Shown in pieces: positions 25,038 to 60,195 of a stretch of DNA of 64,000 bases; position 1 is the first letter of the stretch; the number at the start of each line of letters is the position of its first letter. Where the stretch lies: positions 1 through 64,000 of the forward strand of contig NZ_RXOM01000012.1 in NCBI RefSeq assembly GCF_008692195.1. Reading direction: 5' to 3'. The position numbers and the translations under genes were made by a program. Under the pieces are notes generated by a model. That model was not told the origin of the DNA and searched no databases. It saw nothing but the letters and a program-made list of their open reading frames with translations. The DNA is from Salegentibacter sp. R32 (lineage in GTDB: Bacteria; Bacteroidota; Bacteroidia; Flavobacteriales; Flavobacteriaceae).

Positions 25038-25150
25038 AATCATCATTGTTTTTTGTTTAGAACAAATGTATAGAAGCAATTCACAAAAAATTCAGAAGCA
25101 AAAACTAAAGTTTACTTAAATTATGGAGCTAATTTTTCTATTTTTAACGT

Positions 25151-26047
25151 ATGAAATGGCAAGAGGCACTTCGGGATTACCAACATTACCTTCGCATAGA
25201 GAGAGGCTTATCTCCCAATTCTATCGAAAATTACGGCTATGATATTGTTAAACTCATTACTTTTTTGGAAGAACATAAAATCCAGGTTTCGCCCTTAAAA
25301 ATTTCCGAAGAAAAAATTCAGGAGTTTATTTATGAGGTTTCCAAAATTCAAAGTGTGCGTTCCCAATCGAGGATAATTTCCGGTTTACGCAGTTTTTTTG
25401 ATTATTTGGTTTTTGAAGATTACCGAAAGGACAATCCTTTAGATCTTATAGAATCGCCCCAAATAGGAAGAAAATTACCAGATACGCTTTCTACGGAAGA
25501 AGTAGACCAACTTATAGAAAGTATAGATTTAAGCCACCCCCAAGGTGAACGCAACCGTTGTATATTAGAAACCCTCTATAGTTGTGGTTTACGGGTTTCA
25601 GAACTAATAACTTTAAAACTATCCGATCTTTATTTTGACGAAGGGTTTATACGGGTGGTTGGAAAAGGAAGTAAACAACGTTTGGTACCTATAAGTACAC
25701 TTACCATTAAATACATCAACATATATATAGATGAAATTAGGGTACATTTACCTATTCAAAAAGGTTTTGAAGATACCCTTTTTTTAAACCGAAGAGGCAA
25801 ACAACTTACCCGGGCAATGATTTTTACCATTGTTAAACAAACCGCCACAAGAGCAGGGATTAAAAAGAAAATAAGCCCGCATACCTTCCGGCATTCTTTT
25901 GCGACTCACTTATTGGAGAACGGAGCAGATTTACGCAGTATTCAGCAAATGTTAGGTCACGAAAGCATCATCACTACAGAAATCTATATGCACATAGATC
26001 GCACTCATCTTAAAGAAGTGTTAGAAAAATTCCATCCCCGAAAATAA
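25151..26047 (+). CDS. xerD: site-specific tyrosine recombinase XerD
   Basis: A 298-residue protein that resolves chromosome dimers with XerC at dif. The N-terminal core-binding domain (1-95) precedes a catalytic domain with all six residues: Arg148, Lys172, His244, Arg247, His270 and nucleophile Tyr279. Length and signature (HTFRHSFATHLLENGADLRSIQQMLGH) match the housekeeping enzyme rather than a phage integrase, and no mobile-element genes are near. A TATTTTTA box (25139-25146) ends four bases before the ATG, so the mRNA may be leaderless. Confidence 0.9.
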   Translation: MKWQEALRDYQHYLRIERGLSPNSIENYGYDIVKLITFLEEHKIQVSPLKISEEKIQEFIYEVSKIQSVRSQSRIISGLRSFFDYLVFEDYRKDNPLDLIESPQIGRKLPDTLSTEEVDQLIESIDLSHPQGERNRCILETLYSCGLRVSELITLKLSDLYFDEGFIRVVGKGSKQRLVPISTLTIKYINIYIDEIRVHLPIQKGFEDTLFLNRRGKQLTRAMIFTIVKQTATRAGIKKKISPHTFRHSFATHLLENGADLRSIQQMLGHESIITTEIYMHIDRTHLKEVLEKFHPRK

Positions 26048-57584: not shown

Positions 57585-58094
57585 TTTTATTATTTCTTCA
57601 CCCAGTTCTTCCACAGTTTTGGTATTTGCATCGATAATAAAATCACTTTGCAAGTAATAAAACTGTCTTTCAAAAAGGTGTTTTCTTATGTATTCTTCCA
57701 ACTCTTCCTCTGTTTGGAGATGATTAATGATAGGCCTCTTTTGTTTTTCTTGAATCAATCGCGCAGTTAAATTCTGCGCAGTCATTTTTAAATAAAAAAG
57801 CTTTACTTCTTCATTGCTCTTCAATAAATGCAAATTATTGGCATAACATGGCGTTCCTCCACCTAAAGAAATCACTTCATTTTTTGAAGACCCTAACACT
57901 TCTTTTAGTACCCTATTTTCAACTTTTCTGAAATAAATCTCTCCATTTTTTTGAAAAATATCGGTAATCGAAGAATTTTCTTTTTTTTCAATTTCGGTAT
58001 CAGTTTCCACAAAATCGAAGTTCATTTTTTTTGATAACAATTGACCCCCAGTACTTTTACCGCAGCCCATATAACCACACAAAACTATTTTCAT
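57573..58094 (-). CDS. aroK: shikimate kinase
   Basis: A 173-residue protein from the ATG at 58094 (MKIVLCGYMGCGKSTGG); starts at 58097 and 58112 only add a few residues before the P-loop. It phosphorylates shikimate with ATP. The P-loop GCGKST is followed by FVETDTEIEKK (Mg/shikimate Asp), EIYFRKVENRVL, LGGGTPCYANN (shikimate site) and KRPIINHL (lid Arg). It overlaps the phosphoribosyltransferase 3' end by 12 bases on the other strand. Confidence 0.92.
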   Translation of the reverse strand: MKIVLCGYMGCGKSTGGQLLSKKMNFDFVETDTEIEKKENSSITDIFQKNGEIYFRKVENRVLKEVLGSSKNEVISLGGGTPCYANNLHLLKSNEEVKLFYLKMTAQNLTARLIQEKQKRPIINHLQTEEELEEYIRKHLFERQFYYLQSDFIIDANTKTVEELGEEIIKLLH

Positions 58095-58156
58095 CATTTT
58101 AATTTTATTCAAAAATGAGCAATTTTTAAGAAATCACAAATTTATCTAAAAATAGC

Positions 58157-58187
58157 CTTGGTAAATTGATAAAACACATTATATTTG
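58157..58187 (+). promoter_or_regulatory. promoter of the tRNA cluster
   Basis: CTTG (58157-58160), 19 bases, TATATTTG (58180-58187) and then CACCC: a near-perfect Bacteroidota promoter 30 bases before the first tRNA. Confidence 0.75.
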
Positions 58188-58217
58188 CACCCGCATTCGC
58201 AAAACGAATGTTGGAGA

Positions 58218-58290
58218 GATCTGGTAGCTCAGTTGGTAGAGCATCTCCCTTTTAAGGAGAGGGTCCTGGGTTCGAGCCCCAGCCAGATCA
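58218..58290 (+). tRNA. tRNA-Lys (TTT), copy 1
   Basis: A 73-nt cloverleaf: acceptor GATCTGG/CCAGATC, D-arm GCTCAGTTGGTAGAGC, anticodon loop CTTTTAA (anticodon TTT), T-arm GGTTCGAGCC, discriminator A. CCA is not encoded. The tRNA is followed by a 46-bp insert and an 18-bp copy of its own 3' end. Confidence 0.95.
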
Positions 58291-58355
58291 CTAAAGATAT
58301 GGATGGGCGAGAAGTTTATCTTGAGCGAAGCCGAAAGGAGCCCCAGCCAGATCAC
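58274..58355 (+). repeat. tRNA 3'-end direct repeat with 46-bp insert, copy 1
   Basis: gagccccagccagatcac, the tRNA 3' end plus one base (58274-58291), recurs exactly at 58338-58355. The 46 bases between (58292-58337) contain GGATGGGCGAG and TTGAGCGAAGCCGAAAG. This looks like a target duplication around a mini-insertion at the tRNA 3' end. Confidence 0.8.
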
Positions 58356-58402
58356 TTTCTTTTTTTTATAATTTTTGTAAAAATTATAGTTCTTTTCAAA
58401 AC

Positions 58403-58475
58403 GATCTGGTAGCTCAGTTGGTAGAGCATCTCCCTTTTAAGGAGAGGGTCCTGGGTTCGAGCCCCAGCCAGATCA
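58403..58475 (+). tRNA. tRNA-Lys (TTT), copy 2
   Basis: Identical over all 73 nt to the first tRNA-Lys, anticodon TTT, no encoded CCA. It is part of a 138-bp duplicated unit (58218-58355 and 58403-58540). Confidence 0.95.
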
Positions 58476-58540
58476 CTAAAGATATGGATGGGCGAGAGGT
58501 TTATCTTGAGCGAAGCCGAAAGGAGCCCCAGCCAGATCAC
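58459..58540 (+). repeat. tRNA 3'-end direct repeat with 46-bp insert, copy 2
   Basis: The same 18-bp repeat (58459-58476 and 58523-58540) surrounds an insert that differs from copy 1 by one base (A at 58313, G at 58498). Confidence 0.8.
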
Positions 58541-58559
58541 TTCTTCTTATTTTTATTCA

Positions 58560-58643
58560 GCCCAGGTGCTGGAACTGGTAGACAGGCATGGTTGAGGGCC
58601 ATGTGTCCATTAGGGCGTATGGGTTCGACTCCCATCCTGGGCA
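58560..58643 (+). tRNA. tRNA-Leu (GAG)
   Basis: An 84-nt class II tRNA with a long variable arm: acceptor GCCCAGG/CCTGGGC, anticodon loop TTGAGGG (anticodon GAG), T-arm GGGTTCGACTCCC, discriminator A. CCA is not encoded. No 3'-end duplication follows it. Confidence 0.94.
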
Positions 58644-58663
58644 CTTTAGCTATACATTTAAAA

Positions 58664-59176
58664 CTAAAGTAGCTTGAATTTATTTAATTCATCACCTAAG
58701 TAAACTTTTCCATAATTATCTACTAAGCCATTTTTTCTAATCATCGTTTTTCTAAAATAAGGTGTCGCTGCTTTATATTCATTAGATTTTTTATAGCCTT
58801 GTATAAAGTTATCCTTTGTGATGTGCCCTAATTTAATTACTTTCCTATTTCTAGAAATTTCGATTAAAATTAATTCATCATACTTATTATTAATTTTGGT
58901 AGTACCACCAAATTTGTTTTCTGCTGTAATAGTTTTTACAGATACCTTTGCCTTAGATAAATCATAGCATTTAATATCATAACCTTCATTGTTATTAACA
59001 TTTAAAACCTCAGGTTTCCTGTTAGTTTGTTCCAGAAATGAATGAGCTATAGCTTCTCCTATTCTACCAATAATATTATCATTTCCATTTAAAACTTTAT
59101 CGTTATTAGCAAAATTCAAAAACTCATCTCTTGCTTCTAGATAATTCCTACAAACTTCTTTCCGTTTATCTATCAT
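58664..59176 (-). CDS. PD-(D/E)xK nuclease-like hypothetical protein
   Basis: A 170-residue protein of unknown function. The pattern is that of the restriction-endonuclease-like fold: Glu41 in GRIGEAIAHSFL, Asp67 in NEGYDIKCYD, then KVSVKT with Lys81, where the usual acidic residue two before the Lys is Ser79. N- and C-terminal parts are Asn/Lys-rich. It stands alone beside the tRNA genes, read leftwards, with no methylase partner. Solitary proteins like this occur near tRNAs as acquired restriction or toxin genes; that role is inference. Confidence 0.65.
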   Translation of the reverse strand: MIDKRKEVCRNYLEARDEFLNFANNDKVLNGNDNIIGRIGEAIAHSFLEQTNRKPEVLNVNNNEGYDIKCYDLSKAKVSVKTITAENKFGGTTKINNKYDELILIEISRNRKVIKLGHITKDNFIQGYKKSNEYKAATPYFRKTMIRKNGLVDNYGKVYLGDELNKFKLL

Positions 59177-59208
59177 AATAGTAAATTATTATTTTAATGA
59201 CGATAAGT

Positions 59209-59286
59209 TACAAAGTTTCATAAACCACTTTGTTTAACTATTTAACTTATTTTTTAAACAAAATAAAAAACTTTGTAGTAGGTTTG
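59209..59286 (+). promoter_or_regulatory. operator-promoter region of the CarH-like regulator
   Basis: Three copies of ACTTTGT occur in 67 bases: 59210-59216 (as ACAAAGT), 59227-59233 and 59270-59276. The outer two extend to a perfect inverted repeat, TACAAAGTTT (59209-59218) / AAACTTTGTA (59268-59277). CTTTGTTTAA (59228-59237) and TTAAACAAAA (59254-59263) form an inner one. The -7 box TAGGTTTG (59279-59286) begins two bases after the last repeat arm. This is the layout expected of autorepression. Confidence 0.6.
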
Positions 59287-59304
59287 AAAATATAACCGAA
59301 AACA

Positions 59305-60195
59305 ATGTCTTACATAAAGAAACAATTCAGCATTAAAGACCTTGAAGTTCTTAGTGGTATAAAAGCACATACCTTAAGAATGTGGGAAAAGCGCTATAAA
59401 GTTTTAAAACCAGAGCGTACCGATACCAATATTAGAACCTACGGGTTAGATGATTTACAAAAATTACTGAATATTTCTTTTTTAAATGAAAACGGATATA
59501 AAATTTCCCGTATTTCTAAATTAAAAGATGAAGAGATTGTCAACTTGGTGAAAAGCATTTCCTCTACCAATAACAGCAACGATAGAGCCATCAAGTCTTT
59601 TAAACTATCCATGTACAATTTCGATCAGAACCTATTTTTTAATACCTATAACAGCCTTCTGAAGACCAAAACTTTTCGGGAAATTTTTCAGCAAGTATTT
59701 ATTCCTTTATTAGATAGTATTGGGATGTTATGGCAAACCAATTCCATTCATCCCGTACACGAGCATTTTATTTCCAATCTCATCAAACAGAAGCTCCTGT
59801 TGAACATAGAAAGACTTCAACAAGAAAAGCCACAGAAAGCCGATAAAAATTTTGTGCTTTTTTTACCCGAAAATGAAATGCACGACTTAGCCATCCTTTA
59901 CGTAAACTATGAAATTTTATTACACGGTTATCAAGCAATTTACCTAGGCCAAAGCCTTCCCATGAAAGATTTAACTTTCCTCGATAAAGTTTATAATAAT
60001 CTAAGGTTTATCAGCTATTTTACAGTAGAACCACAAGATCCAGGCAAATATCTAGAAAATTTCAATGAGCAGATTATTAATAAATTAGATTGTGAGTTTT
60101 GGATTTTAGGTCAACGTGCCAATTCTATTTTAAAAATACCTTCAGAGAAAATCAAAGTAATGAAATCTTTAGAAGAATTAGTAAGAAGATTATAA
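59305..60195 (+). CDS. MerR-family regulator with CarH-like cobalamin-binding domain
   Basis: The protein has 296 residues. The N-terminal MerR helix-turn-helix (about 6-75; FSIKDLEVLSGIKAHTLRMWEKRY) is followed by a helical bundle carrying the W-x9-EH signature of CarH/LitR photoreceptors (Trp143, Glu153-His154). A Rossmann-like domain (about 180-296) has Glu191-Met-His193, matching the B12-ligand motif ExHxxG except that Gly is Ala; later Gly motifs are degenerate. It starts one base before crtI and heads the carotenoid genes, so it probably represses them, lifting in light or by B12 state. The cofactor is inference. Confidence 0.87.
   Translation: MSYIKKQFSIKDLEVLSGIKAHTLRMWEKRYKVLKPERTDTNIRTYGLDDLQKLLNISFLNENGYKISRISKLKDEEIVNLVKSISSTNNSNDRAIKSFKLSMYNFDQNLFFNTYNSLLKTKTFREIFQQVFIPLLDSIGMLWQTNSIHPVHEHFISNLIKQKLLLNIERLQQEKPQKADKNFVLFLPENEMHDLAILYVNYEILLHGYQAIYLGQSLPMKDLTFLDKVYNNLRFISYFTVEPQDPGKYLENFNEQIINKLDCEFWILGQRANSILKIPSEKIKVMKSLEELVRRL

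Follow-up and report, generated by a model that had tools for sequence, protein, structure and literature searches.

A compact element in the tails of flavobacterial tRNA genes reproduces the tRNA 3' end and has an arm complementary to it

Towards the right end of the window, by which we mean the whole 64,000-nucleotide stretch of Salegentibacter sp. R32 analysed here, two tRNA-Lys genes and a tRNA-Leu gene follow one another on the forward strand, and each tRNA-Lys gene is trailed by a short element with the following parts.

58218-58291, + strand: tRNA-Lys(TTT) copy 1, the target (ARAGORN, Rfam); its 3' end from about A58 is restored by the element
58292-58304, + strand: linker of element 1, TAAAGATATGGAT, from the sequence; 58304 lies outside the four-nucleotide arm
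58305-58308, + strand: left arm of element 1, GGGC, complementary to tRNA positions 59-62 (GCCC at 58340-58343)
58309-58319, + strand: conserved GAGAAG-TTTAT of element 1 (alignment, covariance model)
58320-58337, + strand: REP-like hairpin of element 1, CTT-GA-GC-GAA-GCC-GA-AAG (covariation, covariance model)
58338-58355, + strand: exact 18-nucleotide copy of the tRNA-Lys 3' end in element 1 (sequence repeat)
58356-58402, + strand: native trailer of tRNA-Lys 1, resembling the direct tRNA-Lys 1 trailer of the element-free genomes G005, G006 and G001
58403-58476, + strand: tRNA-Lys(TTT) copy 2 (ARAGORN)
58477-58489, + strand: linker of element 2, from the sequence
58490-58493, + strand: left arm of element 2, GGGC (covariance model)
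58494-58504, + strand: GAGAGG-TTTAT of element 2; A to G at 58498 is the sole difference from element 1
58505-58522, + strand: hairpin of element 2 (covariance model)
58523-58540, + strand: exact 18-nucleotide copy of the tRNA-Lys 3' end in element 2 (sequence repeat)
58541-58559, + strand: native trailer of tRNA-Lys 2, beginning CTTCTTCTTATTTTTATTC, resembling the G005, G006 and G013 trailers
58560-58644, + strand: tRNA-Leu(GAG), without an element (ARAGORN, repeat search)

The 18-mer GAGCCCCAGCCAGATCAC, with which both tRNA-Lys genes end, is present at 58274, 58338, 58459 and 58523 but at no other place on either strand of the window, the chance expectation for a given 18-mer in 64 kb being about 2e-6. 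The two 138-bp units (58218-58355 and 58403-58540), spaced by 185, are distinguished by a single mismatch, A at 58313 against G at 58498. The earlier note had described a 46-bp insert and an exact 18-nucleotide copy of the 3' end behind each tRNA-Lys, a 138-bp unit present twice, 185 bases apart with one base different, and a tRNA-Leu lacking such a copy; the sequence repeats bear out this description, as does a repeat search of 57600-59400 (minimum 14 nt), in which no copy of the tRNA-Leu 3' end was found. At curated thresholds Rfam reports the three tRNAs and nothing more. A covariance model trained on 66 relatives, with both window copies held out, recovers copy 1 at 58304-58344 (57.6 bits, E 1.2e-16) and copy 2 at 58489-58529 (50.3 bits, E 3.4e-14), with no further match in the window up to E 1.

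As the tRNA-Lys pair is found in all 16 genomes of the genus, the duplication of tRNA-Lys is ancestral, and it is not part of the element. Intact elements behind tRNA-Lys occur in 3 of the 16 genomes, namely the window's own (G000), G008 and G014, and the covariance model finds no element at the tRNA-Lys loci of the other 13. In the window's genome the sequences beyond both 3'-end copies resemble the trailers found immediately downstream of tRNA-Lys 1 and 2 in G005, G006 and G001, which are element-free, and the linker before the core is unlike those native trailers, so that the 64 bp constitute the exact unit of presence and absence at both tRNAs. Such seamless presence and absence is possible because the unit carries the 3' end that it displaces. 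This comparison of occupied and empty sites, together with the Escherichia coli tyrT-tyrV spacer considered below, supports the earlier idea: the element behaves like something that inserts at a tRNA 3' end and restores it.

The tRNA-Lys spacers of G010, G012 and G015 are long (143-152 nt) and align to the G008 or G014 element with scores close to, or slightly higher than, the top score among 200 shuffles, and on the basis of these alignments they may hold decayed remnants. In a tree built for 15 genomes on two neighbouring proteins, several deep nodes of which are weak (support 36-48), the window's genome is placed next to the empty G006 with support 100. A hand count for intact elements requires 3 gains or 8 losses, and 4 gains or 7 losses when the possible remnants are taken as present. 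The 18-bp direct repeats permit precise deletion and hence an empty site need not be ancestral; gain at tRNA-Lys is favoured over loss, though not proven. Behind tRNA-Gln, degraded or truncated remnants are seen in G000, G003, G006 and G009, which suggests old residence and decay and counts against the insertion model developed below. Three cores of the genus, at G014 Lys2 (L195), G000 Gln (L302) and G009 Gln (L298), are interrupted at GTTTAT or a few bases further on by unrelated sequence, which could represent insertion sequences. In G008 (L192) the first element at each of the two tRNA-Lys copies is backed by another one of a different kind (GACGAGATGTTTGCA...GGGCAGCCAGATCAC).

Within the window's genome the long pattern, with up to 3 mismatches allowed, is found at these two places only; there are tRNA-free REP cores at two further sites besides the remnant behind tRNA-Gln, and the covariance model adds five weak matches, three of which cover the core and not the arms. 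The 64-bp query has matches in 5 of the 16 genus genomes, behind Lys, Gln, Met, Trp and Leu tRNAs and also near a tRNA-Asn. The core is present in 68 of 299 genomes of the family, the window's genome being counted, and a reversed-pattern control gave no match in the same 299. With a stricter pattern, ten of 395 genomes drawn from the phylum have the core, all among the 41 that belong to the window's family, and none of the 354 outside it does. The insert is thus not a local feature of this contig.

The 110 loci L068-L177 contain 169 core copies. A same-strand tRNA lies at most 1.5 kb upstream of 149 of them, and 126 are succeeded by 11 or more bases identical to the upstream tRNA's 3' end; overlapping loci are included in these counts. 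When identical contexts are removed, 135 of 156 cores have a same-strand tRNA within 700 bp upstream and none has an opposite-strand tRNA there. In 121 of these 135 the 3' end of the element's own tRNA fits better than that of every other isotype in a reference set of 70 tRNA ends and 16 isotypes. These figures agree with the earlier suggestion that the insert also stands behind other flavobacterial tRNAs, mostly with a copy of their own 3' end. Twelve isotypes bear elements (Lys, Gln, Met, Trp, Thr, Gly, Asn, His, Leu, Ile, Ala and Arg). Tandem arrays are frequent, one of them (L136) comprising six cores at 109-bp spacing, and a recognisable 3'-end copy is present in at least one unit of 97 of the 105 tRNA-plus-core arrays. 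Core variants match in 68/336 comparisons within an isotype across genomes and in 4/35 across isotypes within a genome, the baseline being 316/2400; they match slightly more within an isotype than across isotypes, and recent jumping between isotypes is accordingly not seen, a point against the insertion model below.

The plan of these loci runs from the tRNA through a linker, which often holds a terminator-like hairpin, to the left arm, GAGAAGTTTAT, the REP-like hairpin, the copied portion of the tRNA, which starts at A58 and extends to the 3' end, and the native trailer. The left arm consists of the four bases before GAGAAG and is complementary to tRNA positions 59-62. Over 96 elements, the first unit of each array, complementarity at 59, 60, 61 and 62 is 0.86, 0.81, 0.93 and 0.82, versus 0.55, 0.46, 0.93 and 0.58 when the arm is paired with another isotype instead; at position 63 it is 0.46 versus 0.25 with other isotypes, and beyond 64 it is at background level. 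The arm tracks changes of the tRNA at 59-60 even inside one isotype. Among tRNA-Gln genes, GC at these positions goes with an arm GC in 11/11 cases, GT with AC in 2/2 and AA with TT in 1/1. Among tRNA-Trp genes GC goes with GC in 5/5, and the nine with GT have the arm AC in four cases, the wobble-compatible GC in three, and an arm that is not fully paired in two.

Covariation was assessed in an alignment of 66 standard-length elements. The other 39 of the 105 arrays, including both window copies, were left out because the copy was missing or because the loop, a base or the length was unusual. Over the ten pairs, 90.8% of cells in the alignment are paired, versus 78.6% in shuffles, and the covariation score of 0.420, versus 0.196 (sd 0.013) for shuffled alignments, is reached by none of 500 shuffles; slid alignments score at most 0.115. 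Two of the five covariation measures fall within the shuffle range (pairs changed on both sides, 97/500; further pair types, 67/500). The inner hairpin also covaries, and in the Alifold structure the T that precedes the hairpin is additionally paired with position 57. Since position 57 pairs inside the element's own hairpin, the copied tRNA is secure from A58 onward only. Distances between tRNA and core, judged by eye, showed no clear ten-base phasing. Judging from these comparisons, we conclude that this is a real, family-wide and structure-selected tRNA-tail element.

The nature of the mismatches indicates in which form the element is selected. At positions 59-62, in 93 elements, the non-Watson-Crick combinations are 19 G.T and four A.C (19 and two without position 61), and at the closing pair of the inner hairpin, in 75 elements, they are 22 G.T and one A.C. 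A requirement acting on double-stranded DNA would be blind to the difference between G.T and A.C; hence the selected form is, on sequence grounds, most likely the tRNA-sense strand folded on itself, be it RNA or single-stranded DNA. At position 63, which lies outside the arm, A.C (10) exceeds G.T (4), and we count this against our main interpretation. The element alone folds weakly (z -1.2 as RNA, -1.6 as DNA); tRNA and element together give z -3.1 as RNA and -4.4 as DNA, values confounded by the tRNA itself.

Repeats behind the tyrT gene of E. coli have been known for decades. The tyrT-tyrV region of strain K-12 contains four additional exact copies of the tRNA-Tyr 3' end. Each unit there has an arm, GGGGAAGGAT or, in the spacer, GGGGAAGGGT, that is an inverted counterpart of this 3' end; GAGAAG or GAGAAC comes after the arm, and the unit closes with tRNA-Tyr from A58 onward. 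The Rfam RtT consensus retains GGAUGAGAA and aAUCC, paired together. Strain CKJ_1000_3.1 (L311) has an RtT downstream of tRNA-Pro that terminates with the tRNA-Pro 3' end, after which the tRNA-Pro terminator appears a second time; this RtT contains CUC-GA-GC-GAA-GC-GA-GAG, the same form as the flavobacterial hairpin. The tyrT-tyrV spacer is a clean case of an empty versus an occupied site: it measures 33 bp in B2.3 and 209 bp in K-12, and the K-12 spacer beyond the 3'-end copy corresponds to the whole B2.3 spacer in nearly the same sequence. The proK site L313 was rejected as an empty site as this lower-copy locus retains a truncated half unit, and proK thus shows a change in copy number. Of 5426 E. 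coli genomes, 4692 have matches to a tyrV-unit query, at 1-10 places each, and 2694 cover a proK query to 80% or more. RefSeq annotates RtT behind tRNA-Pro (L311 and others) as 'processed from tyrT transcript', and 18 RtT places lie on plasmids.

RtT (RF00391; the tyrT 178-bp repeats, rttR/tpr) and the flavobacterial element both lie behind a tRNA with units that end in the exact 3' end of that tRNA from A58. Both have an outer stem of arm and 3'-end copy, the RtT arm, which can reach 10 bp, being GGAT, or GGGT in the spacer between tyrT and tyrV, complementary to position 59 onward and directly followed by GAGAA; both have a hairpin of the GA-GC-GNA-GC-GA type and tandem copies, and the duplicated terminator at tRNA-Pro recurs in some flavobacterial long units. 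They differ in that RtT is 168-178 bp long versus 58-139 bp (median 108) for flavobacterial units and 64 bp for that of the window, has several additional hairpins and no TTTAT, and was encountered only at tRNA-Tyr and tRNA-Pro in the few E. coli loci examined versus twelve isotypes in flavobacteria. The Rfam RtT model, at its gathering score of 45 bits, has no match in the window or in any of the 16 genus genomes, and the best match of the flavobacterial covariance model in E. coli (8.6 bits, E 0.47) is not significant; as the two models do not recognise each other's members, we do not class the element as a member of RtT. We interpret it instead as the flavobacterial, compact version of a tRNA-tail element resembling RtT, the proposed link resting on plan and motifs. 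PMC12306157 lists rttR as containing a REP, and among openly licensed PMC papers we found no description of the flavobacterial element or of its link to RtT.

We searched for an enzyme that could mobilise the element. It resembles REPs with their TnpA-REP (RAYT) transposases in being a small, palindromic, gene-less repeat with a REP-like inner hairpin, which is similar to dispersed flavobacterial REPs. It differs from them in being bound to tRNAs, with a tRNA-specific arm and copy, and in that no cognate RAYT gene flanked by the same hairpin was found. A RAYT match is present in 40 of 68 element-bearing and 85 of 231 other family genomes (Fisher p 0.002, which takes no account of genome size or kinship) and absent from 28 of the 68. 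Of the family's 30 best-scoring RAYT loci, one has the hairpin close by, and five RAYT-type loci of the genus, inspected by eye, have other palindromes in three cases and the element's hairpin in none. We reject RAYT as the mobiliser because its flanks lack the hairpin and those 28 genomes lack a match. Y1 matches occur in all five element-bearing genus genomes, but also in three of the 11 others. GIY-YIG nuclease-like ORFs were found near cores twice (L115, L073), that at L115:3401-3805 lying amid three GTTTAT-type REP copies. The neighbours of tRNA-free cores at 46 loci include no recurrent gene family of interest, and altogether the RAYT, integrase and neighbour-gene searches yielded no mobilising enzyme.

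According to PMC5934647 and PMC8266576, in IS608 of the IS200/IS605 group a tetranucleotide 5' of a hairpin pairs with the tetranucleotide that sets the junction, and an altered guide leads to an altered target. Guide-target pairing in IS608 and TnpA-REP, as those papers present it, is by analogy the nearest known logic for the present element, in which the arm would act as a guide tetranucleotide and is complementary to a candidate target tetranucleotide at positions 59-62. The element differs from IS608 in that 11 nt lie between arm and hairpin and in having no transposase and no demonstrated single-strand transfer.

Our preferred reading is single-strand, arm-guided insertion that restores the tRNA, to which we give about even odds. 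The element would propagate as a folded single strand, DNA or RNA, the four-base arm of which would pair with positions 59-62 on the sense strand of a tRNA gene and so place the junction in the T-arm. It would re-supply all sequence downstream of the junction, leaving the tRNA intact, and arrays might then grow or shrink through recombination between the 3'-end copies. The main rival, which we think unlikely, is that the element is an RNA with a function in the host, its tail being co-transcribed with the tRNA and its folded strand and mock 3' end acting in tRNA processing or as a small RNA, with selection keeping arm, hairpin and copy matched. Covariation and the tolerance of G.U speak for such a role, as do the RefSeq note on E. 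coli RtT and short units that lie close behind tRNAs such as tRNA-Trp with no terminator-like hairpin between. Against it stand the patchy distribution, with the core in 68 of 299 family genomes and an intact element at tRNA-Lys in 3 of the 16 from the genus, the visible decay at tRNA-Gln and the many long units located beyond a terminator-like hairpin. Plain tandem duplication or slippage around a REP palindrome, with identity maintained by gene conversion, would account for exact-period arrays such as the six cores of L136, and is in keeping with the copy-number variation in E. coli, where the lower-copy proK locus retains its truncated unit. We nevertheless regard it as distinctly improbable, for it leaves unexplained the match of the arm to tRNA positions 59-62, the acceptance of G.T where A.C is rare, the occurrence of one core behind twelve isotypes, and a window linker unrelated to the native trailers.

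It is also conceivable that the tail of a pre-tRNA, from A58 to the end of the terminator, was copied by reverse transcription and inserted along with the hairpin. In seven of 84 arrays (L072, L087, L109, L111, L132, L148, L161) the proximal and distal trailers agree through the terminator and diverge within -1 to +5 nt of the end of its T-run, which hints at copying of transcript ends, though not as a general rule, and the fold of the sense strand is compatible with it. Nine arrays, however, agree for 6-23 nt past the T-run (L074, L094, L119, L134, L137, L142, L144, L155, L177), two stop agreeing before its end (L102, L140), and many, including those of the window, have trailers that bear no relation to each other, which makes RNA-templated copying very unlikely in our estimate. 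Least probable of all, and already largely refuted, is that the element is a remnant or passenger of integrase-driven islands. Tyrosine-integrase genomic islands at tRNA 3' ends do restore that end on insertion, as the element does, whereas the latter is gene-less, 64 bp long and without an integrase. When 173 loci and the window were scanned with a strict recombinase motif, the only hits were recombinases by the tRNA-Thr/tuf/tRNA-Trp cluster, which we take to be the housekeeping XerC, and one motif in the window, at 25148-26044, 32 kb from the elements. A looser motif applied to 17 chosen loci brought up two integrases beside cores, both tyrosine integrases at tRNA-Leu (in G014 and G039), and two island-like stretches there (G014:C18, G039:C2) end in a core and the Leu 3' end. 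Among the inspected loci integrases adjoin cores at these two sites only, an integrase gene with arm sites, as expected of an att site, was not found beside the element, and one core serves twelve isotypes. For these reasons we reject an integrase remnant, and the analogy with an integrase att site drawn in the earlier note fails; moreover, we know of no att site that is characterised by four-nucleotide complementarity and a hairpin. Islands can instead acquire cores, because the 3'-end copies are recombination sites.

The island-like stretches at tRNA-Leu (G014:C18, L172 and L173; G039:C2, L107 and L108) apparently lie inside element arrays, with an integrase nearby, the core and Leu 3' end at their right ends and, in G039, repeats of GGTACAACATAGGTACAACA; such islands seem to use element arrays as extra landing sites. 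By eye, the predicted tRNA-Leu at L108:3645-3726 has an intact 3' part and a 5' part that was apparently replaced, with an integrase adjacent.

The repeats of E. coli tyrT are apparently not unique, as a compact element of the same architecture occurs behind twelve isotypes in a large bacterial family. The four-base match offers a direct, testable rule, which renders the origin and role of RtT experimentally tractable, and if real, the guide rule would be a natural addressing code for tRNA genes. Returning to arm-guided insertion, we offer as a tentative and rather speculative extension that Enterobacteria and Flavobacteria share a class of gene-less mobile elements, addressed to tRNAs by a four-nucleotide guide for positions 59-62 on a folded single strand and restoring the tRNA, of which tyrT/RtT might be the first-seen members and which a change of four bases would readdress.

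Some further occurrences of these sequences deserve mention. The terminal loop of the hairpin is variable and may carry extra sequence while the rest is conserved (L130, L131, L157, L009, L019). In flavobacteria and Latescibacteria the REP AGTTTATCTTGAGCGAAGCCGAAAG is found within the loops of other REP palindromes, as a REP within a REP (L022-L067, e.g. L026, L031, L051, L067), and none of its exact-pattern copies in these loci has a same-strand tRNA within 150 bp upstream. Two contigs of a viral collection (L268, L269), on which the looser recombinase motif revealed no integrase, hold elements as well: one lies behind what appears to be a truncated tRNA-Asn end, and the other behind the second of two tRNA-Lys genes, the first of which is without one.
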